This document shows positions 26,336 to 43,748 of a DNA stretch of 56,225 nt, piece by piece. The DNA comes from a virus. Below the pieces are notes generated by a model. The model was not told the origin of the DNA, did not search any database, and was given only the letters and a program-made list of their open reading frames with translations. The stretch is from positions 1 through 56,225 of IMG/VR virus record IMGVR_UViG_3300044614_000423, one strand, 5' to 3'. Numbering within the stretch: the first letter of the stretch is position 1; each line of letters begins with the position of its first letter. Made by a program: the position numbers and the translations under genes.

Positions 26336-28049
26336 AGTGCAGATCGCTTATGATGCAAAGACCAGCCGATTCATCATCCACTCGCCGCCGTGGATGGTGG
26401 ACAAGATTCGCCGCATTCCCAATCGACGTTGGGATTCTCGTCGCCGGGTTTGGACAGCTCCTGCTCTACGGGCTAATAGCGAGTTTCTGCTTGGCAATTT
26501 TGACGCTGACGCATTTACAGATGTTGCTCGGACGGTTGCAAATACGACTATCGAACGCGTACACACGAATCAAGTAGCGGCATTCCCGGCCGTCTACACA
26601 TTCAAGACTACGCCCCGGCCTTACCAGCTCAAGGGACTCGACCATGCGTGGAATAAGAGCACCTTCGCGTTCTACATGGACATGGGTACAGGCAAGACCA
26701 AGACTTCGCTTGACCTCTTTGCCGCGTACTTCATGGACAGTAAAGTGGATCGAGTGCTTATCGTCACCAAGTTCAGCACGCGCAAGAACTGGGAGCGCGA
26801 GGTACTCATTCACTGCCCGATGGAGTGCGACACGCTTATCCTCGACACTAGTAAGCCCAAGGCGTTCGAGCAGTGGAATACCACGACCGATGGCCGCCTG
26901 AAGTTCCTAATCGTCGGCACCGAATCGCTCGCGGCTGGTGGCGCGGTGGGCCTCGCGCAGAAGTTTGTGGATTGCAGTACCCGCGTCGGAATGATCGTGG
27001 ACGAAGCGCATATGATTAAGAATCACTCGGCAGTGCGCAGTAAGAACTGCGTGAAGCTGGGTAAATCCGCGAATTACAAGGTGATCATGACGGGCACGCC
27101 AGTGGCGAACGGCCCGATGGACATCTTCATGCAATTCGAGTTCCTCGACCCGAACATCATCGGAATCGGGGATTTCTACTCTTTCCGCAATCGGTACGCG
27201 ATTATGGGTGGATACGAGGATCGGCAGGTGGTGGGCTACCAGAATATGGAAGAGCTTATCGAGCTGATCTCGCCGTTCATCTACCAAGTGCGCAAGTCCG
27301 AGGTGCTGACGGAGTTACCACCAAAAGTGTACCAGACCCGTGAGGTCCAGCTAACTGATGAACAAAGACGACTATATAAAGACATTGCTAAACGTGACAA
27401 GACGGTATCTGGAGATCAAGGAATCACCGTCAAGACAGTGCTCGAGCGAATGCTCCGGCTCCAAGAAATCGCCGGGGGTATCATCACCTTCGAGCGCAAT
27501 CCCGACCTTTACGACGCGGCGAAGTTCTCACACAATCGCATAGCGGGCAAGAACCCGAAGGTCGAAGAGCTACTCGCTATAGCTGAGGAGAACGACGCCA
27601 GCACGATTGTGTGGTGCCGATTCATTGAGGAAATCCGCATGGTGTGCGAGGCCCTCCGCGAGAAATACGGCCACGACTCTGTGGTAGAGATTCACGGCGG
27701 CATTAGCGAAAACGATCGCGACCACAACGTGCAGAACCTATTCCAGACCGGCAAAGCGCGATTCCTCGTGGGTAACGCGGCCACCGGTGGCGTGGGTCTG
27801 AATATGACCCGTGCGGAGTTGGTGGTGTACTATTCGAACTCGTTCTCTTTTACCGATCGCGAGCAGTCCGAGGACCGTGCGCACCGGATGGGGCAGACGC
27901 GGAGCGTGACCTACATCGACATTATCGCCGAAGGCACAGTGGACGCGGCCGTGACTCAAGCGTTACGAGAGAAAAAGGACGTGAGCGAGTTCGTACGGAC
28001 GAGCATCAATGACCGAAACGATCGTAACTTGCTAGGCTCGCTCGCGTAG
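26307..28049 (+). CDS. SNF2-type helicase with HARP-like N-terminus
   Basis: 580 residues, superfamily 2. Residues 10-60 (FIIHSPPWMVDKIRRIPNRR, RRRVWTAP) resemble the HARP domain of annealing helicases. The ATPase core has Walker A MDMGTGKTKT with Lys130, DEAH at 232-235, MTGTPVANGP (motif III), GGVGLNMTRA (motif V) and the arginine finger motif QSEDRAHRMGQT (VI). Such proteins remodel or reanneal forked DNA and act as the replication helicase in some phages. GAGGTGAAAG precedes the start, inside the primase gene, so translation is coupled. Confidence 0.9.
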   Translation: MNPSSDQNSKVQIAYDAKTSRFIIHSPPWMVDKIRRIPNRRWDSRRRVWTAPALRANSEFLLGNFDADAFTDVARTVANTTIERVHTNQVAAFPAVYTFKTTPRPYQLKGLDHAWNKSTFAFYMDMGTGKTKTSLDLFAAYFMDSKVDRVLIVTKFSTRKNWEREVLIHCPMECDTLILDTSKPKAFEQWNTTTDGRLKFLIVGTESLAAGGAVGLAQKFVDCSTRVGMIVDEAHMIKNHSAVRSKNCVKLGKSANYKVIMTGTPVANGPMDIFMQFEFLDPNIIGIGDFYSFRNRYAIMGGYEDRQVVGYQNMEELIELISPFIYQVRKSEVLTELPPKVYQTREVQLTDEQRRLYKDIAKRDKTVSGDQGITVKTVLERMLRLQEIAGGIITFERNPDLYDAAKFSHNRIAGKNPKVEELLAIAEENDASTIVWCRFIEEIRMVCEALREKYGHDSVVEIHGGISENDRDHNVQNLFQTGKARFLVGNAATGGVGLNMTRAELVVYYSNSFSFTDREQSEDRAHRMGQTRSVTYIDIIAEGTVDAAVTQALREKKDVSEFVRTSINDRNDRNLLGSLA

Positions 28050-28057
28050 TGTATAAT
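28029..28057 (+). promoter_or_regulatory. Early promoter overlapping the helicase 3' end
   Basis: TTGCTA (28029-28034), 17-base spacer, TATAAT (28052-28057); the -10 is three bases past the helicase stop. The 32-base leader contains CACATAGAGA and then CATAGAGGAAG, two versions of the early leader motif. Confidence 0.75.
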
Positions 28058-28089
28058 AGAGCACATAGAGATTAGAACATAGAGGAAGT

Positions 28090-28431
28090 ATGCAAAAACC
28101 CGTAGTATTCGTGACACAAGAGGTCACGACAGCCAATTATCAGGACGTGGAACGCTTCGGCGAACCCGTGTTCCTGTCCACCAGTGAGGTGTCGAATGTC
28201 CCGGATTCCCTCCATAACCAAAAGCTCATCTCCTTCATCCGAAGCAGATTCGACAAATACGACCCCAGCATCGACTTCATTGCCCCCAGTGGAAGTCCTA
28301 TCGTCGCGGGGTTGGTATTTGCGATGGCTCGAGAGAGAGGAGACACCTTCAACATCCTCAAGTGGAACAACCGCGACCGCCAGTACACCGCGATCCGAAT
28401 CGGAGTAAAGGGAGAAAAGAATGTCTACTGA
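28090..28431 (+). CDS. Conserved phage protein, unknown function (113 aa)
   Basis: Begins KPVVFVTQEVTTANYQDVER, then a central Ser/Gly motif DFIAPSGSPIVAGLVFAMAR and an end of the form ILKWNNRDRQYTAIRI. The glycine loop between a strand and a helix recalls a Rossmann-like or phosphoribosyltransferase-like nucleotide-binding fold, but I cannot confirm it. Proteins with the same ILxWxNRDRxYxPI ending occur next to replication genes in other phages. It has its own promoter and overlaps the next gene by 11 bases. Confidence 0.7.
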   Translation: MQKPVVFVTQEVTTANYQDVERFGEPVFLSTSEVSNVPDSLHNQKLISFIRSRFDKYDPSIDFIAPSGSPIVAGLVFAMARERGDTFNILKWNNRDRQYTAIRIGVKGEKNVY

Positions 28432-28858
28432 GATGGAAAATGAGTACTCCAAGTACGACGGTGTGTCGCTCGTGGACTTAGTGCACGCGATGTCTACGAT
28501 GCAAAATCGTAAAGAGGCACTGGAAGATCAGCTCAAGATCATTAACAAGGAATTCGACTTCCTGCGCATCACCAAGATTCCCACCAAGATGGAGGAGGAC
28601 GGAGTGGACCGTATCAACGTGACCGGAATTGGCCGCGTATCACTGACGGCGGATATGCACGTGTCGGTGAAAGCGGACCAGAAGTCCGAATTCTTCACAT
28701 GGCTCCGCGACAACGGGCGCGGCGACCTCTTGCAGGAGAATATTAATCCGTCTACACTCAAGGCGGCCGTGAAGAAGATGTTCCGCGAAGGCGAAGAAGT
28801 GCCGGACCAGCTTCTGAATGTGTCGCCCTTTACGCGTGCCTCAATCACGCGGACCTGA
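28421..28858 (+). CDS. Coiled-coil plus small domain, replication module
   Basis: 145 residues. An N-terminal heptad helix (HAMSTMQNRKEALEDQLKII) is followed by a small beta domain (RINVTGIGRVSLTADMHVSV) and a helical end (FFTWLRDNGRGDLLQENINP ... GEEVPDQLLNVSPFTRASIT). This layout is widespread in phage early regions, usually near recombination or single-strand-binding genes, and has no proven role that I know. It might coat or chaperone a replication protein. Confidence 0.65.
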   Translation: MSTEMENEYSKYDGVSLVDLVHAMSTMQNRKEALEDQLKIINKEFDFLRITKIPTKMEEDGVDRINVTGIGRVSLTADMHVSVKADQKSEFFTWLRDNGRGDLLQENINPSTLKAAVKKMFREGEEVPDQLLNVSPFTRASITRT

Positions 28859-28861
28859 ATT

Positions 28862-28898
28862 CGGCAATGGTGCCGGGTATCCCGCACGCAATGCGTGC
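28862..28898 (+). other. Two adjacent hairpins in an early-gene leader
   Basis: CGGCA (28862-28866)/TGCCG (28871-28875) and GCACGC (28884-28889)/GCGTGC (28893-28898) sit back to back in the 59 bases between genes, just before a TAGGAG ribosome binding site. No T-run follows, so RNA processing or 5'-end stabilisation is more likely than termination. Confidence 0.5.
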
Positions 28899-28917
28899 AT
28901 GTAACTAGGAGCTAGTA

Positions 28918-29661
28918 ATGGCTAAAAATCAAGTAGCAGTGAAAGAAGAATTCGAACTTGTAACTAACGAGATTCCGGATTTCTTGAAGCAAGGTAACCG
29001 GGGCGCGGAGAATGTCGGCACTGACGACATGATCATCCCCCGCATTGAGCTGATCCAAGCACTGTCCCCAGTGCGCAAGAAAAGCGATCCCGCCTATATC
29101 GATGGTGCTGAGGAAGGCATGCTGTACAATAACGTGACTCGTGCGCTGTACGGCACTGAAGTCACTGTGGTGCCAGTGTACTACACGAAGCAGTACCTCG
29201 TGTGGAAAGATCGCAAAGCGGGCGGCGGCGGTAGTAACGGCTTCCGTGGCGCATTCGCGACCAAGGAACTGGCTGACCGCGCAATCGCGGAGTTGGCCGA
29301 AGAAGCGTTGGAAGTCTCCGACACGGCACAGCACTTCGTGCTCGTGCGCAATGGTGACGACTGGCAAGAGGCGGTGATCTCGATGGCCAAGTCCAAGGTC
29401 AAGGTGTCCAAGCGTTGGAACTCGCTAATGCGACTCACCAACACCGATTCGTTCAGCCGCGCCTACAAGCTGTCGGCTACGACTGAGACCAACGCACGGA
29501 ACGAGAGTTACTTCAACTTCAACGTCGCGGCCCTCGGGTTCGTGAACAAAGAGCTGTACGAGCGCGCTGAGAAGCTGTACGAAACGATCCGTTCCGGCGG
29601 CGTCAAGGTCTCGAACGACTACGACGGCGAAGTGAATGAAGTCGCAGAATCCGAGTATTGA
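28918..29661 (+). CDS. Conserved early protein, possible ssDNA-binding role
   Basis: 247 residues. The core pattern MIIPRIELIQALSPVRKKSD, then EEGMLYNNVTRALYGTEVTV and VVPVYYTKQYLVWKDRKAGG with a Gly-rich loop, then QEAVISMAKSKVKVSKRWNS, is shared with abundant uncharacterised proteins in podovirus and siphovirus replication modules. Beta-rich start, basic centre and a C-terminal acidic tail (DYDGEVNEVAESEY) would suit single-stranded DNA binding with an acidic protein-interaction tip. That is inference from layout only. It lies between the two helicase genes. Confidence 0.65.
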   Translation: MAKNQVAVKEEFELVTNEIPDFLKQGNRGAENVGTDDMIIPRIELIQALSPVRKKSDPAYIDGAEEGMLYNNVTRALYGTEVTVVPVYYTKQYLVWKDRKAGGGGSNGFRGAFATKELADRAIAELAEEALEVSDTAQHFVLVRNGDDWQEAVISMAKSKVKVSKRWNSLMRLTNTDSFSRAYKLSATTETNARNESYFNFNVAALGFVNKELYERAEKLYETIRSGGVKVSNDYDGEVNEVAESEY

Positions 29662-29663
29662 TC

Positions 29664-29882
29664 ATGGATCCATGGAAACACCGTAGCGCTGGTATGCAGT
29701 GCAAAACGTGTATGTGGTTCGCCGAAAAAGTGCGCGACCGCATTGGTTCAGCTGACTCTGATACCAACTCGGTTATGACCGTTGGCCGTTGCCGCCGTCA
29801 TGCTCCCACCATGAACGGCTATCCGGTGGTTTACATGACTGACTGGTGCGGCGATCACAAGCTGAACGAGAACGCTGTTTAA
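29664..29882 (+). CDS. Small zinc-finger-like protein (72 aa)
   Basis: Cys13-x2-Cys16 near the start, then Cys43 with His46 and Cys62 near the end (MQCKTCMWF ... VGRCRRHAPTMNGYPVVYMT ... WCGDHK). This is a recurrent small phage protein whose four ligands probably bind zinc. The ATG at 29664 is preferred to an upstream TTG. Its stop shares bases with the next gene's start (TAATG). The role is unknown; the setting suggests a nucleic-acid or helicase accessory. Confidence 0.7.
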   Translation: MDPWKHRSAGMQCKTCMWFAEKVRDRIGSADSDTNSVMTVGRCRRHAPTMNGYPVVYMTDWCGDHKLNENAV

Positions 29883-31297
29883 TGCAAGTTAACGCCATCT
29901 ACGGACCCCCCGGAACTGGCAAGACCACGGAGTTACTCCGGCGTGTGAGAGAGACAAGGGATTCAGGCGTTCAAGCTGAACGTGTGGCCTTTGTATCTTT
30001 CACTCGTGCGGCGGCATCCGAGGCACTCTCCCGGCTGGGCCTTAAGCGATCGGACAATGTGTCCACCATTCATGCGATGGCCTTTCGGCACATGGGCTTG
30101 CGGCAGACGCAAGTCGTGGACCCGATGAAGCTTCGCGAATTTTCAACAGTAATGGGGATACCGATTATTGGTAAGTCCCCGGAAGACGATGAGGAGCGTT
30201 CTGATGGAGACTTCTACCTTGACCTACTCAATTATGCCCGGAACACCTTTTCCAATCCGGCAGAAGTTTACGACATCTCGGACCGGCCGGGTACTCGGGC
30301 CGAGTTCAATGCGTTCATTCGGGCATATGCTGATTGGAAATCTACGTACGGATATTACGATTTCACCGATATGCTTGAACGTGCCGCCCGGGGCGCAGTG
30401 CGATCAGACGCAGAGGTTGTATTTGTCGACGAAGCTCAAGACTTATCACCTCTTCAGTGGGCTGTTATCGAGAAGCTCGTCCGACGTGCTCACGAAGTGC
30501 ATATCGCGGGGGACGACGATCAGGCGATTTATACGTGGGCCGGTGCGGATGTACACGGTATGGGAAGATTTACGGACAAGCACAAGGGTAATAGCCATGT
30601 GCTCTCGTACTCGCATCGACTTCCTGCTTCAGTCCACGCACGATCACAAGAGCTTATCCGTCGAGTCGCATTCCGCGTGGATAAGGAGTTTAGTCCCAAG
30701 CCAGATTTGGGATTGGTCCGAGTACACGGATCGATCAACTCGGTGGAGATCGTCCACGGGGAAGATATATTACTACTGGGACGGACGCATTCAGTCCTCC
30801 GCGAAGTTGAGCAATCGCTCATTGAACGCCGCATCCCGTACACGCGCGAGTCGGGCCGCCCCGGACTGTATCAAAATCGATACGCCGCCGGACTACGAGC
30901 ATTTCGCAAGCTGGGTCGAGGTGAGCGGATTACTGATGGAGAACGAAATGCAATATTCACAATTTCCAGCGCTGAGACAAGGCGGCTACTTGAAGCGGGC
31001 GACCTCGCCACTCTTGGTCGCACCCCATTCTACGTGGCCCTCCAGATTCCCGGCCGAGTCGTGGACTTTTACGCAGACGCTGACCTCGATACTGAGCCGA
31101 CTATCCGACTTTCTACGATCCACGCGGCAAAAGGCCACGAAGCGGATCGGGTTATTCTTCTGACCGACATGACCACGCGGGTTCAGCAGACTGCCGAGAA
31201 GTCACCGGATGACGAGGTCCGAGTGTTCTACGTCGGAATGACCCGCTCCAAGCGTGTGTTAGACATAGTAGAGGGGTACAACGGCTACAAATTGTAG
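29882..31297 (+). CDS. UvrD/PcrA-type superfamily 1 helicase
   Basis: 471 residues from the ATG overlapping the previous stop; an upstream in-frame ATG would put 12 extra residues before a conserved start. Motifs in order: Walker A GPPGTGKTT (Lys14), SFTRAAASEA (Ia), FVDEAQD at 183-187 (II), GDDDQAIYTWAGA at 210-222 (III), LLGRTHSVLREVE (IV), STIHAAKGHEADRVILL (V) and VFYVGMTRSK (VI). It is shorter than cellular UvrD because the 1B and 2B domains are reduced, as in phage forms. It should translocate 3' to 5' on single strands during replication or recombination. Confidence 0.92.
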   Translation: MQVNAIYGPPGTGKTTELLRRVRETRDSGVQAERVAFVSFTRAAASEALSRLGLKRSDNVSTIHAMAFRHMGLRQTQVVDPMKLREFSTVMGIPIIGKSPEDDEERSDGDFYLDLLNYARNTFSNPAEVYDISDRPGTRAEFNAFIRAYADWKSTYGYYDFTDMLERAARGAVRSDAEVVFVDEAQDLSPLQWAVIEKLVRRAHEVHIAGDDDQAIYTWAGADVHGMGRFTDKHKGNSHVLSYSHRLPASVHARSQELIRRVAFRVDKEFSPKPDLGLVRVHGSINSVEIVHGEDILLLGRTHSVLREVEQSLIERRIPYTRESGRPGLYQNRYAAGLRAFRKLGRGERITDGERNAIFTISSAETRRLLEAGDLATLGRTPFYVALQIPGRVVDFYADADLDTEPTIRLSTIHAAKGHEADRVILLTDMTTRVQQTAEKSPDDEVRVFYVGMTRSKRVLDIVEGYNGYKL

Positions 31298-31300
31298 TAA

Positions 31301-31329
31301 TTGACAGACAGTATCGCGGGTGGTATAAT
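31301..31329 (+). promoter_or_regulatory. Early promoter for the polymerase/Z-genome operon
   Basis: Perfect TTGACA (31301-31306), 17-base spacer, perfect TATAAT (31324-31329). The leader ends with the shared CAGATAGAGGACATTC element before the ATG at 31367. It would drive the 88-residue protein, polymerase, purZ, mazZ and probably datZ as one operon, since those genes overlap or nearly touch. Confidence 0.9.
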
Positions 31330-31366
31330 AGCCACTTCAGTAACCAACAGATAGAGGACATTCAAG

Positions 31367-31633
31367 ATGGCAACATACGATAACACCAATTCGGGCATGA
31401 TGGCCCGTAACGAGCGTCGCACCACCGACAAGCACCCCGAATTCTCCGGCTCGATCAACGTCGAGGGCGTGGATTATTGGCTCTCGGCTTGGGTTAATGA
31501 GGGCAAGGCTGGTGGTAAGATGGAAGGCAAAAAGTACTTCTCCATCAAGCTGTCGCGCAAAGAGGGCGGCGTTGGCACTTCCGGCCGATCAGCGAGTGAT
31601 TCGAGCTACGAATCTGACGACATCCCGTTCTGA
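31367..31633 (+). CDS. Small protein with SSB-like acidic tail
   Basis: 88 residues. The body (DKHPEFSGSINVEGVDYWLS, then WVNEGKAGGKMEGKKYFSIK) is a small beta fold of the DUF736-like kind. It ends SYESDDIPF, which copies the C-terminal tip of bacterial SSB (acidic residues then IPF) that recruits replication proteins. It may be a small single-strand-binding protein or a decoy/recruiter using the SSB docking site (inference). The stop overlaps the polymerase start (TGATGA), so expression is matched to the polymerase. Confidence 0.75.
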   Translation: MATYDNTNSGMMARNERRTTDKHPEFSGSINVEGVDYWLSAWVNEGKAGGKMEGKKYFSIKLSRKEGGVGTSGRSASDSSYESDDIPF

Positions 31634-33468
31634 TGACCGAACTCCCACGCATTGACTACGAACCTGTCGTGGTCATAGACACCGAGACCACGGGACTGAA
31701 GTGGTGGGCCGACAAGCTGTTCGGTATCTCCATCGCATTCCCGGGGTACTCGGGCTACTGGGACGTCCGGTCCGACCCCCACATCGTCGCATGGCTCAAC
31801 GATCTCATCAAAGAGAAGCGTGTCGGGCTGTGGGTCGGCCATAACCTTAAATTCGACTTGCACTTCCTGCGCGAAGCCGGAGTCGCACTGCCACTGGACC
31901 GAATCGACTGCACGATGACCCGTGCCGCCTTGATCTCGGAGCATGAACCTACGTATGCCCTCGACTTCCTCGCTCGCAAATACTGCGGGATGAAGAAGGA
32001 CGAGGAGATCTACGAGGAGATGTCGCGCCTGTTCGGTGGCCGCCCGACTCGCAACGCACAGATGCCGAATATTTCCCGCGCCCCCATCAGTCTCGTGTCG
32101 AAATACGCGATCCAAGACGCCGTGGTGACGCTTGCGTTGTACCAGTGGCAAGAGGAGCAGATGCGAACGCAGAATCTCGCCCAAGTGCACAAGCTCGAGC
32201 GCGACCTGATGCCAGTGATTATGGACATGGAGGAGCAAGGCGTGCGGGTGGACGTCGGGTTGGCTGAGAAGGCCGTCCGTGACCTCACCGTTCGCGTTGA
32301 CACCATGCAGAGGGATCTGAATAGCTTGGCTGGCTTCGAGGTTAACCCGAACCCCTCCGGATCGATCGTAGACCTATTCAAGCCAACGCTCGGGGACGAT
32401 AATGAGTGGTATCTGATTGACGGCACGAAAGCAGACAAGACCGACGGCGGTAAGGCCTCGATTAACGCCGACTGCCTACGCCGCATGAAGCACCCCGCCG
32501 CGAAGATGATTCTCGACTTGCGCAAAATGCTCAAGACCCGTGATACTTTCCTGTCGGGCCACATCTTGGGACACGAACACGATGGTATCATTCACTGCAA
32601 CTACAACCAGACTAAAAACGACGCTGAGGCAGGGACTGGAACTGGACGTCTATCAGTTACCAATCCCGCTCTTCAGCAGATACCATCTAGAGACGTTGCC
32701 ATCAAATCGCTTATCCGGCCGATTTTCAAGGCTGATGTGGGTGCTAAGTGGATGGGGCTGGATTGGTCACAATTTGAATTTCGAGTGGCTAACCATTACG
32801 GTCAGGTTCCCACGATTCTTGAGGCCTATCGTGCAAACCCCGATCTCGACTTTCACCAATTGGTGTCTGACCTCACCGGTATCCCCCGAAACGCCCAGTA
32901 CGCTGGTGGCCCGTCTTCGAAAGCGATTAATCTCGGGCTGGCGTTCAATATGGGGTCTGGGCGGCTAGCGCAGGAGTGCGGGCTACCCTACACCGAGGAG
33001 GTAGGACCCAACGGCAACGTGTTTCTAAAGGCCGGACCCGAGGCGATGGCACTGTTCGAGAAGTACCACGCCGCGAACCCCGGAATGCGCAACACCGCGC
33101 AAAAGGCGAGTAATATTGCCAAGGAGCGCGGCTCGGTGCATTCAGTGATGGGCCGTCGGCTTCGGTTCCCGGGTGGACAATTCGTGCACAAGGCGTCAGG
33201 GCTGATTTACCAAGCCACCAGCGCGGACTGCATGAAGCAAAAGCTTATTGAGCTTCACAAGTATTTAACCGCCGAAGGCTGTGGGCGACTACTGCTGACG
33301 GTACACGACGAGGTGGGCATATCGCTCGATAAAGACTCACTCGATAAAGCGAAAGAGGTAGCACGAATCTACACGACCTTTGACGGTGTAGAATGTCCCA
33401 TTCATCTGCGTGTTCCTATCACGTGCGACTGGGGTATAGGCGAGGACTGGTACGAAGCGAAAGGATAG
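31633..33468 (+). CDS. dpoZ: Family A DNA polymerase with 3'-5' exonuclease (DpoZ candidate)
   Basis: 611 residues, Klenow-like with no 5' nuclease domain. The proofreading domain has VIDTETTG (Asp16, Glu18), HNLKFD (Asp75) and SKYAIQD (Tyr158, Asp162). The polymerase domain has motif A GLDWSQFEFR (Asp377), motif B PSSKAINLGLAFNMG (Lys430) and motif C TVHDEV (His558, Asp559). The positions equal to E. coli Phe762 and Tyr766 are Leu434 and Phe438, and the Arg754 position is Gly426. It lies immediately before purZ, as in phages whose PolA-type DpoZ prefers 2-aminoadenine; that preference is inferred here from linkage. Confidence 0.88.
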   Translation: MTELPRIDYEPVVVIDTETTGLKWWADKLFGISIAFPGYSGYWDVRSDPHIVAWLNDLIKEKRVGLWVGHNLKFDLHFLREAGVALPLDRIDCTMTRAALISEHEPTYALDFLARKYCGMKKDEEIYEEMSRLFGGRPTRNAQMPNISRAPISLVSKYAIQDAVVTLALYQWQEEQMRTQNLAQVHKLERDLMPVIMDMEEQGVRVDVGLAEKAVRDLTVRVDTMQRDLNSLAGFEVNPNPSGSIVDLFKPTLGDDNEWYLIDGTKADKTDGGKASINADCLRRMKHPAAKMILDLRKMLKTRDTFLSGHILGHEHDGIIHCNYNQTKNDAEAGTGTGRLSVTNPALQQIPSRDVAIKSLIRPIFKADVGAKWMGLDWSQFEFRVANHYGQVPTILEAYRANPDLDFHQLVSDLTGIPRNAQYAGGPSSKAINLGLAFNMGSGRLAQECGLPYTEEVGPNGNVFLKAGPEAMALFEKYHAANPGMRNTAQKASNIAKERGSVHSVMGRRLRFPGGQFVHKASGLIYQATSADCMKQKLIELHKYLTAEGCGRLLLTVHDEVGISLDKDSLDKAKEVARIYTTFDGVECPIHLRVPITCDWGIGEDWYEAKG

Positions 33469-33473
33469 AGGTA

Positions 33474-34601
33474 ATGGAAAAGATTAGAATCGTAGTCGAT
33501 CTGCAATACGGGAGCACCGGCAAGGGGCTGATCGTAGGCAAGATCGCTGAAGATGAAGCACCTGATACGGTGATCACCGCGTGGGCACCCAATGCGGGGC
33601 ACACGTACATCAGCAAAGATGGGCGCAAGTTTATTCATACACACCTTGCCAACGGCATCGTGTCGCCCAAGCTCCGTCGAGTGCTCCTCGGCCCCGGCTC
33701 GCTGATCAACCCCCGGCAACTGCTGGCAGAGATCGCCGCGTGTTCGGACTTGCTCGGAAAGGTAGAGATTCTGATTCACCCACATGCCGCTGTAGTGACC
33801 GAGCGTCACATTGAGGAAGAAGCGGGACCGATGACCAAGATCGGCTCGACCAAAAAGGGCGTGGGTGCCGCGATGATTCAACGCATCCGACGCAATCCGG
33901 ACGACCTGAACATCGCCGCCGACTGCGAGGAGCTTGCAAAATACATAGTCACAGTGGCTACCTACCGCGCCGCACTGCGTGACGCCAAGAGTGTGCTAGT
34001 AGAGGGCGCACAGGGCTACGGGTTGTCGATGTACCACGGCTTTTACCCCTACACCACTTCGCGTGATGTGAGCCTGTGGCAAATCCTCGCCGATTGCGGC
34101 ATTCCGCACGACCTACTCCCCGAGGTATTCGGCGATCTGATGATGAACGTGATCGGCACATGCCGCACTTATCCGATCCGAGTGGCCAATCGATTCGACA
34201 CCCACGGGACGCAAGTCGGCTACTCTGGACCTTGCTACGGTGACCAGCTGGAAATCACGTTTGAGGAGATCGGACAGAAGACCGAGCTGACCACAGTGAC
34301 CAAGCTCCCGCGCCGCATTTTTACGTTTAGCCGCAAGCAGATTGAAGAGGCGATCGAGTACAATGGTGCTCGGGAGATCTTCCTGAACTTCGTTAATTAT
34401 TGCAGGTCCGAGGACGAGGTGCGGGATATTGTGGAGTCGATTGAGCGCAGTAAAGACACAGTGGTGCGCTGGATTGGACTCGGACCCGCTTATAAGGACG
34501 TGTACTCGATGCCGCAATACGGTCCCGAGGCACGAATGGCACGAATTCTTGAACTTTGGAGAGCATATGCTACAGGTAGAATCAACAGTACACACGGATG
34601 A
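33474..34601 (+). CDS. purZ: PurZ: succino-2-amino-deoxyadenylate synthase
   Basis: 375 residues from the ATG after ATAGAGGTA; longer frames upstream lie inside the polymerase gene. It is an adenylosuccinate synthetase homologue. The P-loop reads YGSTGKG, with Ser14 where PurA has the catalytic Asp of GDEGKGK, the replacement that marks PurZ. PNAGHT (His43), IGSTKKGVGAAMI and VEGAQGYGLSMYHGFYPYTT match other PurA blocks. In the known pathway it joins aspartate to dGMP, giving the precursor that host PurB converts to dZMP. It starts five bases after the polymerase stop and overlaps mazZ by 35 bases. Confidence 0.93.
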   Translation: MEKIRIVVDLQYGSTGKGLIVGKIAEDEAPDTVITAWAPNAGHTYISKDGRKFIHTHLANGIVSPKLRRVLLGPGSLINPRQLLAEIAACSDLLGKVEILIHPHAAVVTERHIEEEAGPMTKIGSTKKGVGAAMIQRIRRNPDDLNIAADCEELAKYIVTVATYRAALRDAKSVLVEGAQGYGLSMYHGFYPYTTSRDVSLWQILADCGIPHDLLPEVFGDLMMNVIGTCRTYPIRVANRFDTHGTQVGYSGPCYGDQLEITFEEIGQKTELTTVTKLPRRIFTFSRKQIEEAIEYNGAREIFLNFVNYCRSEDEVRDIVESIERSKDTVVRWIGLGPAYKDVYSMPQYGPEARMARILELWRAYATGRINSTHG

Positions 34602-35070
34602 AGCCAATGAGACCCCTTGGGCGATACACCCCGAACGGGCGGCTGAAATTGTCGATGCGCACGGCGCAACCGTCGCGACTTTCGAAGTCCGTCACCACCT
34701 CAAAGGTGTTCTCGGCAACTGCGACCGCAATGCGGATCTTGCAGTCCGTGCAGTTAACGCCTACAAAAAGCGCGGGGGTGCGGATATTCGTCAGTTACAG
34801 GATCGGATTACGCGTTGGGCCGATTCTAACTTTCCACAAAGAACGACGCCGGATGTTTTACTCAAGCTCTACGAAGAGGTGGGTGAGTATTGCCGTAACC
34901 CCAAGTCAGCACTCGAAATGGGTGACATCCTTATATTACTCTTTGATGTCGCCCACCTGAACGGTATAGACGTGCATAAGGCGGTAGAGGACAAGATGGA
35001 TATCAACGAAAAACGCGAATGGGAAGTGGACGTCAACACGAGGATCATGCGCCATGTCGAACCGAAATGA
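34567..35070 (+). CDS. mazZ: MazZ: MazG-type nucleotide pyrophosphohydrolase
   Basis: 167 residues. The MazG metal signature is Glu103-Glu104-x2-Glu107 (LYEEVGE), then Glu117-x2-Asp120 (LEMGDILILLFD), followed by KMDINEKREW. In Z-genome phages MazZ turns dGTP (or GTP) into the monophosphate used by PurZ. Residues 1-75 are an extra small domain ending LGNCDRNADLAVRAVNAYKK, of a kind seen as a separate small phage protein. The start at 34567 has TTGGAGAG upstream within the purZ end, giving tight translational coupling to purZ. Confidence 0.85.
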   Translation: MLQVESTVHTDEANETPWAIHPERAAEIVDAHGATVATFEVRHHLKGVLGNCDRNADLAVRAVNAYKKRGGADIRQLQDRITRWADSNFPQRTTPDVLLKLYEEVGEYCRNPKSALEMGDILILLFDVAHLNGIDVHKAVEDKMDINEKREWEVDVNTRIMRHVEPK

Positions 35071-35269
35071 TGAATTCAACAACTGGTACAACGAGACCTT
35101 CGGCCACGTGCTTGGGTCCGAGGACGATGATAACCGCGAAGCGGTAAAAAAGATCTGGAACGGGGCACTGGAGCGGATCGCTCGTAAGTACGAATTCCAG
35201 CTCTTCGACGAGCTTTCAGGCGATCAGATCGCTGACCAAATCAGGCGTCTGCAGGCGGTGAAGTCATGA
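35054..35269 (+). CDS. Small acidic protein in the Z cluster (71 aa)
   Basis: Begins MSNRNDEFNNWYNETFGHVL, then an acidic stretch (GSEDDDNREA) and two helices ending DQIADQIRRLQAVKS. I recognise no family and see no catalytic motif. It overlaps mazZ by 17 bases and the next gene by four, so it belongs to the same transcript and is probably translated by re-initiation. A regulatory or scaffold role for the nucleotide enzymes cannot be excluded. Confidence 0.65.
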   Translation: MSNRNDEFNNWYNETFGHVLGSEDDDNREAVKKIWNGALERIARKYEFQLFDELSGDQIADQIRRLQAVKS

Positions 35270-35898
35270 GTTACATCATCGCTTCTCTCCCGCCCATGAA
35301 GTGCTTTGTGCGGCGCGAGTTCTTGTACAACGATCACAAGGGTCACGGGGAGCTGGAACCCGCGATTTGGGTTAGTATTAAAGCCCTCCGAGGCCAAGTG
35401 TTCCGGATCGAGTCGCTACTCCCCGCGTATGGCGCGCTGTACGACAAGCTACCTATTCACGCCTACGTTTGGCAATCGAACTACACCGGTAATCTGCCGA
35501 TCGACGTTTTGCAACTATGGGACTGCATGGGCTACCGATTTACGATCGTCGAGAAGATCGGCTTGCGCAATCTTGGCGTGAAGTTCCTCGGCAAAGACCG
35601 GGAATGGCATTTCGGCCGATACCTATTCACCGTGGACTTCTGTGCTGACGGCATGGATATAGACACGGGATTCACCGAGCAAGCCGAAGAGCACAAGAGC
35701 TTCAACTTTATTGCGCTGGACAACGGCCAATTTGCTTGCCAGCCGAACAATCGGTGCCTGTGGTACGATCAGAGCCTAATTCCCGCCGAGACTAAATTCC
35801 CCGACTTTCAAGCGGCACAACGTATGTGGACCGTCGATGGTACACGCAAATGGAGTGCCGGGGACGACTGGTTCTACGATATCAAGGAGAGAACATGA
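35266..35898 (+). CDS. Conserved phage protein, unknown function (210 aa)
   Basis: Begins YIIASLPPMKCFVRREFLYN, continues GHGELEPAIWVSIKALRGQV and LPIHAYVWQ, with LPIDVLQLWDCMGYRFTIVE in the middle, and an end rich in Trp and Phe. The pattern recalls an uncharacterised protein family widespread in phage genomes, including several with modified nucleotide pools. There is no obvious active site, although the family-type PPxKCFVRREFLY opening is well kept. It overlaps both neighbours by four bases. Confidence 0.7.
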   Translation: MSYIIASLPPMKCFVRREFLYNDHKGHGELEPAIWVSIKALRGQVFRIESLLPAYGALYDKLPIHAYVWQSNYTGNLPIDVLQLWDCMGYRFTIVEKIGLRNLGVKFLGKDREWHFGRYLFTVDFCADGMDIDTGFTEQAEEHKSFNFIALDNGQFACQPNNRCLWYDQSLIPAETKFPDFQAAQRMWTVDGTRKWSAGDDWFYDIKERT

Positions 35899-36116
35899 CC
35901 CCCGCCGAGCTACTGCATATGGATGCCGCAAGGTATGCTACTAACCGAAAGCTTGCTTATATCGGAGCCATGCATAAAAAAGAAGTCGAACCCATGAGTG
36001 AGCAAGAATTAAACGGCAGATGGCTGGCTCACTACGAAGGCTATCGTGAAGGCTACTGGGTCGCAACAGGTGATAATAAATTTACGACTGACCCGTTCAA
36101 GGAGAAAAACACATGA
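35895..36116 (+). CDS. Small unknown protein (73 aa)
   Basis: The start at 35895 is chosen because AAGGAGAGA precedes it and it overlaps the previous stop (ATGA). It begins TPAELLHMDAARYATNRKLA and contains LNGRWLAHYEGYREGYWVAT, a Trp/Tyr-rich stretch. No family recognised. It is part of the chain of overlapping genes between mazZ and datZ. Confidence 0.6.
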   Translation: MTPAELLHMDAARYATNRKLAYIGAMHKKEVEPMSEQELNGRWLAHYEGYREGYWVATGDNKFTTDPFKEKNT

Positions 36117-36295
36117 AAACCAAGCAAGAGATCAAAGAAGAAATCATTGAGCTATACGGAGCTACCACGGCTTTGAGGGAGGCAATGAACATACTCCACG
36201 CACAAAGCATGGAGAAAAGTAAACAGATGATGGCACTGAATCACATGCTAAAAGAAATGGATGATGACCACGGTATTGAAGGGGCGGGTGTATGA
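36113..36295 (+). CDS. Small helical protein (60 aa)
   Basis: Wholly helical: KTKQEIKEEIIELYGATTAL, then REAMNILHAQSMEKSKQMMA and an acidic end MDDDHGIEGAGV. ATGA overlaps on both sides keep it in the Z operon. No known family; it could be a small coiled-coil partner. Confidence 0.6.
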   Translation: MKTKQEIKEEIIELYGATTALREAMNILHAQSMEKSKQMMALNHMLKEMDDDHGIEGAGV

Positions 36296-36855
36296 GTTTA
36301 ACAGTATACGAACAGCTCCGCGCTTGCCACGTCAAGCGGTGGCACATCGTGCAGACGTCGCGGGAGCAGACGCTGGCCGAGCACTCTTTCGCAGTCGCGG
36401 TGATCGCGGGATCCCTCGCGGCGGCTATGCGATGGAAGGGCCTGTTGCATGATTCGGGTAAATTGAAGCTCCTGCAGTGGGCACTCGCGCACGACGTAAT
36501 CGAGGTGCGCACCGGAGATATGCCGACGCCGTTCAAGCGTGACCTAGAAGCGGTAGGGGGTAAGGGTATCGTGGAAAAGGCTGAAGACCGAGTTGACAGC
36601 GATACAATGGCGGCTTACCGTCAGGTGAAAGGGACAGATATAGAGACCATAGTCAAGCTCGCGGACCAGATCGAGGCGATCTTTTTCCTGCAGGACAACG
36701 GAGTCGGGGCGCACGCCAAGCAAGTGCTCGATGGCCTTCGTGCGATCCTGTCCGACATGGTGAATGAGGCTGAGCGTTTGCACCCAGCGCTAAACGTTCG
36801 CGAATCGGTTCGCCGCGTGTGCAACGATATAGGAATTACAGGGGGATGGTTATGA
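36292..36855 (+). CDS. datZ: DatZ: HD-domain dATP triphosphohydrolase
   Basis: 187 residues. YfbR/DatZ-type HD fold: QTLAEHS with His31, ALAHDVIEVRTGDMPTPFK with His67-Asp68 and Glu71, and KLADQIEA with Asp125, giving the metal-binding H...HD...D set. Arg16 and Trp17 near the start fit the YfbR nucleotide pocket. DatZ in known Z phages removes dATP to dA so that the polymerase meets only dZTP. The size and motif spacing match. It shares an operon with the polymerase, purZ and mazZ, which makes DatZ much more likely than a generic 5'-nucleotidase. Confidence 0.88.
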   Translation: MSLTVYEQLRACHVKRWHIVQTSREQTLAEHSFAVAVIAGSLAAAMRWKGLLHDSGKLKLLQWALAHDVIEVRTGDMPTPFKRDLEAVGGKGIVEKAEDRVDSDTMAAYRQVKGTDIETIVKLADQIEAIFFLQDNGVGAHAKQVLDGLRAILSDMVNEAERLHPALNVRESVRRVCNDIGITGGWL

Positions 36856-37067
36856 ATTGTATTAAGTGCGGCGAGGAGACCCGAGTCACTACCACATACC
36901 AGAACGCGAATGGCGTCACCCGCCGTCGCCGAACTTGCAACCATTGCGAATTTCGATTCACCACACGCGAAAGGGCCGAAATGCCCGAATCGCTCGAGGA
37001 CGAAAAGAAGGGACTTGACAATCTGTCCCACGTGTGGTATAATGGATCCTCGACCAATAAACCATAG
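36852..37067 (+). CDS. NrdR-like zinc-ribbon protein (71 aa)
   Basis: Cys3-x2-Cys6 and Cys29-x2-Cys32 with RRRRTCNHCEFRFTTRERAE copy the N-terminal zinc ribbon of NrdR, the repressor of ribonucleotide reductase genes. The ATP-cone that senses dATP in NrdR is absent, replaced by about 30 unrelated residues. It could bind DNA at NrdR boxes and affect host nucleotide genes (inference), or be a general small zinc protein. The ATG at 36852 overlaps the datZ stop and has AGGGGG upstream. Its 3' end contains the next promoter. Confidence 0.72.
   Translation: MNCIKCGEETRVTTTYQNANGVTRRRRTCNHCEFRFTTRERAEMPESLEDEKKGLDNLSHVWYNGSSTNKP
37015..37043 (+). promoter_or_regulatory. Early promoter for the HDAC-like gene
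   Basis: TTGACA (37015-37020), 17-base spacer carrying CCCACGTGTGG, TATAAT (37038-37043). It lies inside the end of the zinc-ribbon gene. The leader ends CCATAGAGGACACC before the ATG at 37079. Confidence 0.9.
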
Positions 37068-37078
37068 AGGACACCATC

Positions 37079-37948
37079 ATGACGACCAGCACCCCCGTAT
37101 TCTACCACCCGGCCCAAGAGGTCTCCTACGACTTCATCTCGGTAAGGAAGATCCCCGAGTTCATCCACCAGTTGGAGGGTGACGTGCGATCGAACTTCGA
37201 GCCGTACACGGCGGTAGACTTCGAGGAGGCGCACCACCGCGAGTACGTCCGTGGCATCCTGAAGAATGTCGCCCCGAACGGCTTCAACACGATCGATCCC
37301 GAGATCACGAACTCGCTCCTCTACTCGAACGCTGGCCACTGGGCGGCGGCCAAGCACGTGCTCCAGCAAGGCGGCGTGCGTGGTGCCGTGGCGTGCTCCG
37401 CGACTCAGGGCTTCCACCACGCTCACTTCGAGGACGGCTACGGGTTCTGCACGTTCAACGGGCTGATGATCACCGCGATGAAGGCACTCCGGAACGGCGC
37501 GACGAATGTGCTGATTATCGATGGGGATGGACACTACGGCGACGGGACCGAGGACGTACTGGACCACCTGATGGTCCGGGGTCGCGTCACGCACGTCACC
37601 CGCCCCGATATAGGACGCCCTATCCAGTCCGAGTGGAACGCCGCGATGTGGCAGTCGTTTGCTAAGGGATTGATTCGGAACTCGAAGGCGGGTATAATAC
37701 TGTATCAGGCCGGTGCTGACGCTTGGGACCAAGATCCCTACGGAGTCGGATACCTGTCTGTCGAGGGTCTCGCGGCCCGCGATCGTGGCATCTTCACCGC
37801 CGCACGCGAAGCCGGGGTCCCATTAGTCTGGAATCTAGCAGGGGGATACTCGAAGCCGATGCAACACACGATCGACATCCATCTGCAAACGCTGAAGATC
37901 AGCAACGAGGTATACTATGCCACCAGTGAAGAATCTGTCGTTCGCTGA
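37079..37948 (+). CDS. Histone-deacetylase-fold amidohydrolase
   Basis: 289 residues. All HDAC-family landmarks are present: His113-His114 in GFHHAHFEDGYGFCTFNG, metal ligands Asp150 and His152 in LIIDGDGHYGDGT, the third ligand Asp214 in YQAGADAWDQDPYG, and Tyr257 in LAGGY. It is shorter than bacterial AcuC or acetylpolyamine amidohydrolases (about 310-380), mainly at the N-terminus. Such enzymes remove acyl groups from lysine or polyamines using zinc. The phage substrate is unknown: acetylated polyamines, host proteins or a nucleotide-linked amide are options. It has its own promoter, right after datZ. Confidence 0.88.
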   Translation: MTTSTPVFYHPAQEVSYDFISVRKIPEFIHQLEGDVRSNFEPYTAVDFEEAHHREYVRGILKNVAPNGFNTIDPEITNSLLYSNAGHWAAAKHVLQQGGVRGAVACSATQGFHHAHFEDGYGFCTFNGLMITAMKALRNGATNVLIIDGDGHYGDGTEDVLDHLMVRGRVTHVTRPDIGRPIQSEWNAAMWQSFAKGLIRNSKAGIILYQAGADAWDQDPYGVGYLSVEGLAARDRGIFTAAREAGVPLVWNLAGGYSKPMQHTIDIHLQTLKISNEVYYATSEESVVR

Positions 37949-39185
37949 CCTAATGGGCGGAGTAGGCAAGGGCCACCGCGCCATTGCCGCTCTCCCGGGC
38001 GCACAGCGCATTCCGCTGGGTATGCGGCAAGCACAAGCTGGCATGCTCCCGAGTGAAGTGCTTGAGCAGTACAATCAAGCCGGGATCTTTGGCAAGACCG
38101 CCAGTGGCGAGCCGATTCGTGGCACAATGTCCTCGACGAATGAGGGTGCGGTACAGCGTGGGTATATGCCCTCCACCGGCAAAATCCGGCTTGACCCCGA
38201 AAGCAAGGCACCGAAGAGTATAGACGAGGCGCACGCACGAGGTATTCATCCAAACATTTCGTGGTCACCCTCTAGGCTCGACAAGGACAAGACCCCGATG
38301 GGTTTTGAGCTGGAGCGTTACATGGCTGAAGCGGCGATGCGTGATCCTAAGTTCAACGCGGCGCGGGCACAATACGGTATGGATATGCCACACCCGACCA
38401 TGACCGACCTCTACGCGATGGACGTAAAGCCCGGGACGTACGGCTTGAAAGACCCCGATTCCGCGTGGTGGAAGAGCCTTCCTGCAAAAGGCAAAGAGCT
38501 GTACGCGCTCGCGTACGACATGATGCGTGCACAAGGGCACGGGAACTTCGCGTCGCACCTGACCGATGTTAACCAAGCCCGACGACTCGGTAACGTATCG
38601 TCGCACTCGCTCGGACACGGCAACCTTGGGTACATCGCCCCAGTCGAAGAGGTGGCGTATTCGCCCGGGATGTCCGGCCAGCTTTTCTCGATGCCTGTTC
38701 AGGCCAGCCACAAGGAAGACTACTACCTAAAGAAGCTATTTGGTGGTCCGAACTTAGTAACCAATAAGAAGACCGACGAATTGATGGACGCGGCACTCGA
38801 TCTGCGCACGCCGAATTTCCTGAAGATGACGCCCGACGAAACGCTCGGTACACTGCTCACACGCGAAGCGCAGATGGCGGGAGCCTACGGTCCCGGAACT
38901 GGTACAGCGTCACCTTTGCGGGTAAGCCAAGTGCGCCCCTACGAAGACGTATTGCTTAAGAACATTGCCGAGCCTCAAGTGCTAGCGAACCCACAGGACC
39001 TAGCGGGTGCTTTCGGCCCTACGACACTTGGACGACAAGCCACGACCGAAGCCCTTATTCGTGGGATGCTCAAGGGGTACGACCCTGCAGAGATCGTCGA
39101 GCGTCTGGTGAAAGAGGCCCCACAGGGTGCTTACAAGAACCGATACAAAAAAGGAGGGCTGGCTCATGCCGCAGTCATCGCTTGA
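37917..39185 (+). CDS. Unknown protein (422 aa), virion-like ending
   Basis: Begins MPPVKNLSFADLMGGVGKGH. The middle has LYALAYDMMRAQGHGNFASH, DVNQARRLGNVSSHSLGHGN and GYIAPVEEVAYSPG, and the end is VKEAPQGAYKNRYKKGGLAH. The RAQGxGN...LGNVxSHxLxHGxxGxIxP pattern recurs in uncharacterised proteins of podoviruses. The KKGGLA ending is like many virion-packaged proteins, which is odd inside the early module. It overlaps the HDAC-like gene by 32 bases, so the two are co-expressed. Confidence 0.65.
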   Translation: MPPVKNLSFADLMGGVGKGHRAIAALPGAQRIPLGMRQAQAGMLPSEVLEQYNQAGIFGKTASGEPIRGTMSSTNEGAVQRGYMPSTGKIRLDPESKAPKSIDEAHARGIHPNISWSPSRLDKDKTPMGFELERYMAEAAMRDPKFNAARAQYGMDMPHPTMTDLYAMDVKPGTYGLKDPDSAWWKSLPAKGKELYALAYDMMRAQGHGNFASHLTDVNQARRLGNVSSHSLGHGNLGYIAPVEEVAYSPGMSGQLFSMPVQASHKEDYYLKKLFGGPNLVTNKKTDELMDAALDLRTPNFLKMTPDETLGTLLTREAQMAGAYGPGTGTASPLRVSQVRPYEDVLLKNIAEPQVLANPQDLAGAFGPTTLGRQATTEALIRGMLKGYDPAEIVERLVKEAPQGAYKNRYKKGGLAHAAVIA

Positions 39186-39471
39186 TATAGACGGGGTGGT
39201 CGCGGAGCGCGGCGAGTCGTACGGCGACTATACGGTCCAAGCCGAGATCGCACAGACGCTGAAGGACCTCTTTCGCGAGTGCCCGGGCTGGGGGCGGCTG
39301 GAGTACCACCAGCGCGAATCGCTGGACATGATCGCGTGCAAGGCGTCCCGCATTTTGAACGGCGACCCTAATCACCTCGACTCGTGGGTGGACATCGCAG
39401 GGTACGCGACCATCGTGGCGACACGAATACCAAAGGGGGGTATTGACAAGGCTACCCCACCTGTGTTATAA
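39166..39471 (+). CDS. DUF6378-like protein (101 aa)
   Basis: The start after AGGAGG is chosen over an upstream ATG. The pattern DGVVAERGESYGDYTVQAEI, then YHQRESLDMIACKASRILNG and SWVDIAGYATIV fits DUF6378, a common phage domain with no assigned activity; all-helical with conserved Glu, Asp and Lys residues, it may relate to the MazG/nucleotide-hydrolase world (inference). Its TAA stop is the middle of the TATAAT of the following promoter. Confidence 0.78.
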   Translation: MPQSSLDIDGVVAERGESYGDYTVQAEIAQTLKDLFRECPGWGRLEYHQRESLDMIACKASRILNGDPNHLDSWVDIAGYATIVATRIPKGGIDKATPPVL

Positions 39472-39472
39472 T
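39443..39472 (+). promoter_or_regulatory. Early promoter with conserved CACCTGTGTTATAAT
   Basis: TTGACA (39443-39448), 18-base spacer, TATAAT (39467-39472) with extended -10 TGT. The upstream gene's last codons and its stop overlap it completely. Confidence 0.9.
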
Positions 39473-39479
39473 ACAGATT

Positions 39480-39501
39480 CTGGGTTGATAAGACGATCCA
39501 G
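39480..39501 (+). other. 5' leader hairpin
   Basis: CTGGGT pairs with ATCCAG (one G-U) around a GATAAGACG-containing loop directly after the transcription start region. The leader of the promoter at 42938 has a similarly placed hairpin, with the shared surrounding pattern TCTGG...GATAA...GATCC. Confidence 0.5.
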
Positions 39502-39541
39502 TAACCACCCAACCGATAGACACTATAGAGGACACATAATC

Positions 39542-39838
39542 ATGGCAAAGACTACTACTAAACCCGTCGCAATCACCACCGACATGGTGGACGAACTCGC
39601 CAGCGTGCGTGACCAGCTCAAGGCGTTGACTGCTCGCGAGAAGCACCTTAAAGAGATCTTCCGCGCCGGTGGCGACGCGATCTACCGTGGCGACCAGCAC
39701 CAGATCGAGATCAAGTTCACCAAGCGTCCCCAGCTCGATATGGATGCCGTCCGTGCGAAGCTCCCGGCTGAGTGGATCGCCGAGAACACCGGCGAAGTCG
39801 AGGTGATGAACATTCGTCAGATGGAGATCGTAAAATGA
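39542..39838 (+). CDS. Small early protein (98 aa)
   Basis: The start follows the shared TATAGAGGACACA leader. Helical N-terminal half (DELASVRDQLKALTAREKHL), then a beta part (AIYRGDQHQIEIKFTKRPQL) and ALPAEWIAENTGEV-like end. Resembles small phage proteins with a coiled coil plus a compact domain near replication genes; no function known. The stop overlaps the following ATG. Confidence 0.65.
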   Translation: MAKTTTKPVAITTDMVDELASVRDQLKALTAREKHLKEIFRAGGDAIYRGDQHQIEIKFTKRPQLDMDAVRAKLPAEWIAENTGEVEVMNIRQMEIVK

Positions 39839-40053
39839 AGGTAACCCCCTACACCACGAAGTCCGGTATTCAGATCGGGTGCAACTACCAGCCCCCGCAG
39901 AATTGGGAGGCGAGTGCTGACATGGAAAGGCTCCAGTCATCACTGCTCGATCCCGAGTACCGGCCTACGGCTGAACGCTTTTGGGACGCCGTCCTTTGGA
40001 CTGCCAGTGTCGCATTGCTTGCGATGCTCATTATAGGAGTACACTATGCGTGA
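39835..40053 (+). CDS. Small single-TM protein (72 aa)
   Basis: N-terminal half polar (VTPYTTKSGIQIGCNYQPPQ), with a hydrophobic segment at the C-terminus (AVLWTASVALLAMLIIGVHY). One C-terminal membrane anchor is likely, placing the rest in the cytoplasm. The role is unknown; early membrane proteins often act on host defences or the envelope, which is only a guess here. Confidence 0.6.
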   Translation: MKVTPYTTKSGIQIGCNYQPPQNWEASADMERLQSSLLDPEYRPTAERFWDAVLWTASVALLAMLIIGVHYA

Positions 40054-40237
40054 CGACGATATCGAGCTGGAAGAGGACGAGGGCGCGAACACTTGCCCCA
40101 TCTGCAACGCAGGGATGGCCACCAAGTGTCTGCAGTCAAAGACTGACCCCCGGCACGACATCTTTTGGGCGAAATACGGGTACCAGTGCGAAGAGTGTGG
40201 TCACCAAGGCGACACATGGGAAGTACTGGGCGATTAG
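40046..40237 (+). CDS. Zinc-ribbon protein (63 aa)
   Basis: Acidic N-terminus, then Cys17-x2-Cys20 (CPIC) and Cys48-x2-Cys51 (CEEC) with an extra Cys28: a clear zinc ribbon of the kind in transcription and RNA-binding factors. It overlaps the previous gene by eight bases. It could bind nucleic acid or RNA polymerase; no closer assignment possible. Confidence 0.7.
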   Translation: MRDDDIELEEDEGANTCPICNAGMATKCLQSKTDPRHDIFWAKYGYQCEECGHQGDTWEVLGD

Positions 40238-40244
40238 ACGATAC

Positions 40245-40273
40245 TTGACAGGTTATTACACCTGTGTTATAAT
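40245..40273 (+). promoter_or_regulatory. Early promoter for the DUF932 gene
   Basis: TTGACA (40245-40250), 17-base spacer ending CACCTGTGT, TATAAT (40268-40273), leader with CACATAGAGGACATTC. Confidence 0.92.
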
Positions 40274-40308
40274 TCATTCTTCATCAACACATAGAGGACA
40301 TTCAGATC

Positions 40309-41289: not shown

Positions 41290-41290
41290 T
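41263..41290 (+). promoter_or_regulatory. Early promoter ahead of an attenuator-like leader
   Basis: TTGACA (41263-41268), 16-base spacer, TATAAT (41285-41290), inside the end of the DUF932 gene. A strong terminator hairpin lies only about 40-60 bases downstream. Confidence 0.8.
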
Positions 41291-41353
41291 GGGGCCTTCA
41301 TGGAACCCGCAGTTGCCATGGAACTTCAAGGGGGCTTCGGCCCCCTCTTTTTT
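41291..41353 (+). terminator. Rho-independent terminator / possible attenuator
   Basis: GGGGGC (41330-41335), UUCG loop, GCCCCC (41340-41345), then TCTTTTTT: a near-perfect terminator. Upstream in the same leader are a hairpin ATGGAAC-CCGCA-GTTgCCAT (41300-41319) and GGGGCC (41291-41296), which could pair with GGCCCC (41339-41344) and break the terminator. The terminator ends transcripts from the DUF932 operon. It would also stop most transcripts from the 41263 promoter unless antiterminated. Confidence 0.85.
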
Positions 41354-41376
41354 AAACACATAGAGGAAACTGTATT

Positions 41377-42123: not shown

Positions 42124-42124
42124 T
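42095..42124 (+). promoter_or_regulatory. Early promoter
   Basis: TTGACA (42095-42100), 18-base spacer ending CCACCTGTGT, TATAAT (42119-42124), with leader CACATAGAGGACACCACC. Confidence 0.92.
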
Positions 42125-42158
42125 ATAACCTTTTTAACAACACATAGAGGACACCACC

Positions 42159-42926: not shown

Positions 42927-42937
42927 GAGGGGGGTAC

Positions 42938-42967: not shown

Positions 42968-42974
42968 TCAGTTT

Positions 42975-43746: not shown

Positions 43747-43748
43747 AT

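Follow-up and report, generated by a model that had tools for sequence, protein, structure and literature searches.

A predicted purZ-type 2-aminoadenine synthesis operon joined to a replication module in an environmental phage lineage

Introduction

Work on Vibrio phage phiVC8, Acinetobacter phage SH-Ab 15497 and cyanophage S-2L has led to a pathway model for phage DNA in which 2-aminoadenine (Z) stands in place of adenine (PMC12884076, PMC8342488, PMC8065100). Here we describe a gene set of this type in a virus record, IMG/VR IMGVR_UViG_3300044614_000423, the whole of which (positions 1-56,225) is referred to as the window. If the model holds for this locus, MazZ would convert dGTP to dGMP, PurZ would use dGMP and aspartate to form the succino precursor of dZMP, host enzymes would carry this precursor to dZTP, DatZ would destroy dATP and DpoZ would replicate the genome with Z substituted for A. 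An earlier reading of the sequence alone (the original prediction) had recognized dpoZ, purZ, mazZ and datZ and proposed that the phage packages Z-DNA. In this analysis, gene identity and order, active-site residues, PurZ phylogeny, the promoter and conservation were computed, while the enzyme activities and DNA chemistry are those expected from the published work on the three phages. The locus is most probably a purZ-type operon for Z-genome synthesis that is fused with a replication module (probability of about 0.9), and the phage is predicted to package Z-DNA.

Identity of the four Z genes

The operon, together with its promoter, was resolved into the following features.

31301-31329, + strand: Z operon promoter, TTGACA-17-TATAAT, its -10 element preceded by TG (12/12 match to the sigma-70 consensus)
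31367-31633, + strand: gene for a protein like single-stranded DNA-binding protein (SSB), first of the operon (phrog_7364, 55.9 bits)
31633-33468, + strand: dpoZ, family A DNA polymerase with 3'-5' exonuclease, a phiVC8-like DpoZ
33474-34601, + strand: purZ, 2-amino-succinodeoxyadenylate synthetase
34567-35070, + strand: MazZ-1-type mazZ, extended at the N terminus by about 70 amino acids (aa)
35054-35269, + strand: s1, conserved 71-aa gene with three predicted helices
35266-36295, + strand: variable cargo slot holding s2 (35266-35898), s3 (35895-36116) and s4 (36113-36295), with differing open reading frames (ORFs) in relatives
36292-36855, + strand: datZ, HD-domain dATP triphosphohydrolase
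36852-37067, + strand: gene for a free-standing zinc ribbon of the NrdR type, at the end of the operon

DpoZ and MazZ were compared with known proteins by profile scores, best-matching structures and individual residues. The window DpoZ scored 772 bits against NCBIfam NF038380 (cut-off, 500) and fell below the cut-offs of the PolA model and of the second DpoZ family, NF038381 (27.8 bits; cut-off, 350). Its best match in the PDB was phiVC8 DpoZ (7pbk), at 455 bits versus 141 for Klenow. Alignment to published residues indicated that L455, F459, G548 and the counterparts of R161 and M165 are kept, and the protein carries an insertion in helix O; these signature residues and the insertion are as published in PMC8599892.

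For PurZ, a score of 348 bits was obtained with NCBIfam NF038379 (cut-off, 300), while PurA models gave at most 164 bits, all below cut-off. The best PDB match was S-2L PurZ (7odx), and a Ser in the motif GSTGKG replaces the catalytic Asp of PurA. In a maximum-likelihood tree of 21 rows, which was rebuilt without a divergent mycobacteriophage PurA-like row (branch length of 10, implausible placement) and without other long-branched or bacterial rows picked after the first tree had been seen, the window PurZ fell among the phage PurZ sequences (clade support, 97/99) and separately from both PurZ0 and PurA; grouping with PurA had been named in the original prediction as a ground for its own rejection. 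The closest relative in the phage collection was about 50% identical, in a search that may omit the records most similar to the window. A Wayne-like Z phage of the PurZ0 type was ruled out, PurZ0 being a separate clade and the NF038381 score lying far below its cut-off.

MazZ, encoded between purZ and datZ, matched Pfam PF04447 (28.2 bits; cut-off, 23) and, as the best PDB structure, S-2L MazZ (7ody). In the alignment it keeps the metal and guanine-pocket residues named in PMC8342488 (E35, E38, E50, D53, I56, D60, K76, N80, R83 and W85). The predicted structure of the full protein was of low confidence (predicted local distance difference test [pLDDT] score of 62) and was not used. DatZ scored 110 bits against phrog_7076, labelled 'dATP triphosphohydrolase', and stayed far below the cut-off of the NCBI YfbR-type model. 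In a comparison of similarity only, S-2L DatZ (6zpa) was its best PDB match, ahead of YfbR. All of the 15 residues compared were the same as in S-2L DatZ, including W20, I22, P79, K81, K116 and the metal ligands; Ile22 excludes the 2-amino group and Trp20 selects deoxyribose (PMC8065100). The structure matches, signature residues and profiles thus bear out the original prediction in that all four genes are real, with the coordinates and identities proposed.

Operon structure

In 18 of 19 loci, the window included, the Z operon promoter was present at 11-12/12 and 66 to 74 nt upstream of the SSB start. That a chain of touching genes lies behind a consensus promoter was upheld, with the correction that the gene directly downstream is the SSB-like gene and not the polymerase. 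The SSB-like gene has relatives in Salmonella phage PMBT28, SH-Ab 15497 and phiVC8, and its ratio of nonsynonymous to synonymous substitution rates (dN/dS) was 0.10-0.19. An operon extent of 31633-36855, as first proposed, misses this gene at one end and the zinc ribbon gene at the other. According to the ORF coordinates, dpoZ and purZ are separated by 5 nt, purZ overlaps mazZ by 35 nt and mazZ overlaps s1 by 17 nt, while 4-nt ATGA overlaps occur at s1/s2, s2/s3, s3/s4, s4/datZ and datZ/zinc ribbon. The presence of an ATGA-type overlap at each join from s1/s2 onward suggests translational coupling over this part of the operon.

Ten perfect TTGACA/TATAAT promoters were found on the + strand (587, 31301, 37015, 39443, 40245, 41263, 42095, 42938, 44080 and 53223), of which eight lie within 31301-44109 and several are at similar places in relatives.

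Conservation of the gene set

A PurZ scan of IMG/VR gave 26 relatives with 68-100% identity and the same gene order wherever the contig reaches. In a wider scan, 481 stretches encoded a relative and the best 80 were read, so that the tallies given here describe the relatives nearest to the query. All four Z genes were present in 48 of the 51 IMG/VR purZ loci with both flanks long enough, and the remaining three had no match to the MazZ profile. Co-occurrence of the four genes, which had been regarded as remarkable, is hence the usual state, as it is also in PMBT28 and SH-Ab 15497, in agreement with surveys of sequenced phages (PMC8342488, PMC12884076). Nor is the set unusual for a short-tailed phage, as had been suggested, since it is found in podovirus ZP6 (PMC8515928) and Podoviridae are among the carriers (PMC8342488).

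The lineage of the window accounted for 43 of the 69 IMG/VR purZ loci with enough downstream sequence, and nine long lineage records that were checked measured 53-59 kb. The N-terminal extension of MazZ is kept across the lineage, and dN/dS was low for ssb, purZ, mazZ and datZ. These data add a well-populated environmental lineage to the known Z-genome phages, for which seven groups are given in PMC12884076, a study of NCBI genomes. The Z gene set is already known; what is new is the lineage, its virion background, the MazZ extension and the lineage-specific genes.

A scan of bacterial genomes found no close PurZ relatives. Two alphaproteobacterial contigs from metagenome-assembled genomes (L062:4941-6645 and L061:4977-6622; one of 994 kb) had the chromosomal order cmk, PurZ-like gene, RdgB/HAM1-like nucleoside triphosphate pyrophosphatase gene and rpsA. 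The PurZ-like protein has a Ser at the catalytic position and scored 207-210 bits with the PurZ model (cut-off, 300). No other adenylosuccinate synthetase homologue was found in the two genomes, whose completeness is not stated. Either a cellular enzyme resembling PurZ or an unusual PurA may be encoded here.

Does the operon serve Z-DNA?

As the pathway of the phiVC8/S-2L type is complete, with the published active-site residues in place and PurZ inside the phage PurZ clade, Z-DNA would be the best prediction for the virion, as originally proposed. Some points weigh against it. Metagenomic sequencing reads Z as A, so that the sequence itself cannot show Z. The window DpoZ has a Glu at the position of phiVC8 Ser583, as do SH-Ab 15497 and PMBT28. 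Restriction-site statistics were compatible with Z-DNA, yet did not separate Z phages from ordinary ones: observed-to-expected ratios (O/E) for A/T-containing six-base palindromes were 0.78 in the window and in eight pooled lineage loci, 0.77-0.91 in PMBT28, SH-Ab 15497 and phiVC8 and 0.51-0.86 in four phages taken as ordinary, while those for GC-only palindromes were 0.19-0.39 versus 0.03-0.42, with overlapping ranges.

Among the alternatives, partial substitution, in which the operon works but virion DNA contains both A and Z because of residual dATP or the action of a host polymerase, survives best and is nonetheless improbable. In Escherichia coli the conversion of adenine by the S-2L triad was significant yet incomplete (PMC8342488), but the residues of the window proteins point to a Z-preferring DpoZ together with an intact DatZ pocket, the combination of phages reported with complete replacement of A (PMC12884076). 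It is less probable still that the cassette no longer serves Z-DNA, with PurZ and the hydrolases only adjusting nucleotide pools and the DNA being ordinary; no support for this was found here, where all four Z genes are intact and evolve under purifying selection and the lineage retains them as a group, with unchanged base-selective residues, although a related polymerase without Z genes is known from phiJL001 (PMC8599892).

As a separate observation, the site GATC is nearly absent from PMBT28 (L040; O/E, 0.01) and phiVC8 (L162; 0.03) and is not depleted in the window (1.05) or SH-Ab 15497 (0.95).

Small genes between mazZ and datZ

The original prediction had treated the four small genes between mazZ and datZ as candidate helpers; s1 is retained as a candidate, and s2, s3 and s4 are dropped. 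A search with a profile of s1 itself found 26 contigs, and in each of them s1 was located between mazZ and datZ; its dN/dS was 0.07-0.25 in four comparisons. Its predicted structure consists of three helices (pLDDT, 78; predicted template-modelling score, 0.53). Sequence and fold searches with s1 gave no credible PDB match, and no relative was detected in the phages collection.

The slot between s1 and datZ spans 0-1023 nt and holds different small ORFs in near relatives. As the slot is hypervariable, s2, s3 and s4 were ruled out as required helpers. That all four genes (35054-36295) are helpers of Z synthesis is scarcely credible: the constant position of s1 and the purifying selection on it would favour such a role, but s2 to s4 are replaced or absent in near relatives, datZ following s1 directly in L006, L010 and L026, and s1 to s4 have no match in PMBT28, SH-Ab 15497 or phiVC8. 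The search for helper genes is thereby narrowed from four candidates to one small conserved gene, s1, plus a zinc ribbon gene that had not been listed.

The s2 protein belongs to a family common in T4-like cyanophages and has no match to a Pfam family. In records, the cyanophage family is labelled 'ferredoxin' or 'PurM'; these labels look wrong.

Zinc ribbon and HDAC-like genes

The last gene of the operon matched PF22811 (34.6 bits; cut-off, 27.2), and its best PDB matches were NrdR chains, over their N-terminal part only. An NrdR repressor was ruled out: the zinc ribbon is present, but the protein ends after 71 aa and so has no ATP-cone. Downstream of the operon lies a further gene, for a protein like histone deacetylase (HDAC), with a perfect promoter of its own.

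37015-37043, + strand: second promoter with a 12/12 match, upstream of the HDAC-like gene (similar positions in relatives)
37079-37948, + strand: HDAC-like deacylase gene, outside the operon (PF00850, 93.5 bits; cut-off, 27.9)

The HDAC-like protein belongs to the acetylpolyamine amidohydrolase/histone deacetylase fold family. Its gene is absent from L022 and L026, is rare in sequenced phages (six records matched) and, with a dN/dS of 0.30-0.51, is under weaker constraint than the Z genes.

Among the lineage loci with enough downstream sequence, s1 was present in 42/43, the zinc ribbon in 43/43 and the HDAC-like gene in 41/43, and none of the three was detected in loci outside the lineage (E value of 1e-3). 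The match to s1 was weak in L133 and L152 (19-20 bits). When 20 Z records were tested, the nine with the zinc ribbon had capsid and portal proteins 91-94% and 74-82% identical, respectively, to those of the window; of the 11 without it, ten had neither protein, and L126 had a more distant version (80% and 46%). Because these three genes also track one virion lineage, their link to Z synthesis is an association only. A speculative and rather unlikely reading is that the Z operon of this lineage gained dedicated new parts, namely s1 and the NrdR zinc ribbon, which stands alone and is translated with datZ. On this reading, competition of the ribbon with host NrdR for ribonucleotide reductase promoters could raise the supply of deoxynucleotides, and so of dGTP for MazZ and PurZ, while dATP is destroyed. 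A limited literature search found no paper on NrdR zinc ribbons in phages with dATP.

Separate histories of the two halves of the genome

Upstream of the Z operon lies the remainder of the replication module.

24773-31297, + strand: upstream part of the replication module (family matches)
24773-26335, + strand: primase(-like) gene of the archaeo-eukaryotic primase type
26307-28049, + strand: SNF2-type helicase
28918-29661, + strand: Pam3 gp34-like gene
29846-31297, + strand: UvrD-type helicase

Two small genes are listed between the SNF2-type helicase and the gp34-like gene, and each gene of this part has a relative in PMBT28 and/or SH-Ab 15497. Throughout 24773-36855, genes with relatives in reference phages match PMBT28, SH-Ab 15497 and phiVC8. 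From the large terminase (46512) on, through the virion block and up to 20649, the matches were instead to Caudoviricetes sp. MW202545 and Caulobacter phage RW. Only the SNF2-type helicase crossed this divide, with a weak match to RW. Identity to the window was 88% for the major capsid protein and 59% for the portal in MW202545, and 80% and 46%, respectively, in RW, with matches extending to the surrounding virion genes. Neither of these records, both complete, matched any Z gene at an E value of 1e-4. As the Z module is related to the PMBT28/SH-Ab 15497 type and the nearest annotated virion relatives lack a match to the Z genes, the two halves appear to have separate histories, the comparison leaving undecided which half moved. 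That a replication and Z module is joined to a virion lineage of which the closest annotated relatives show no Z genes agrees with published work in which horizontal transfer is seen as the route by which Z synthesis spreads.

The structural genes had been called SU10-like, a description that was not sustained: positions 1-50000 of SU10, which hold the terminase, portal and capsid genes, gave no match to these at an E value of 1e-3, and the only similarities to this Kuravirus were an endolysin match and a partial match of 27%. Among the window proteins, none was recognized as a tail tube, sheath or tape measure, which would fit a short tail; counting against this, the title of MW202545 reads 'Siphoviridae sp.', and the RW group is listed as having a tape measure protein (PMC11053796).

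Record L126 (IMGVR_UViG_3300046010_009690) has a related virion module and a different Z cassette (PurZ, 59%) that lacks s1, the zinc ribbon and the HDAC-like gene, and may represent a second event in which Z genes and a virion module of this type were joined. Neither a 1787-aa protein in the virion block (14288-19651) nor a 405-aa protein between the terminase and portal (47950-49167) had a PHROGs or Pfam match.

Comparison with known systems

PMBT28 and SH-Ab 15497 share with the window the order SNF2 helicase, gp34-like gene, UvrD helicase, dpoZ, purZ, mazZ and datZ, with DpoZ proteins 46-48% and PurZ proteins 49-50% identical. In contrast to the window, the SSB gene of these phages lies between dpoZ and purZ, datZ directly follows mazZ, the N-terminal fusion of MazZ differs from the window's extension and there is no match to s1, the zinc ribbon or the HDAC-like gene. 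Phage phiVC8, with solved DpoZ and PurZ structures, shares the DpoZ clade and signature residues, PurZ and DatZ, but has a MazZ-2 type enzyme instead of MazZ-1 (PMC8342488), a primase between dpoZ and purZ and a promoter annotated at purZ. Cyanophage S-2L shares the order purZ-mazZ-datZ and the MazZ-1 and DatZ pockets with the window and, unlike it, has a PrimPol and no DpoZ (PMC8065100).

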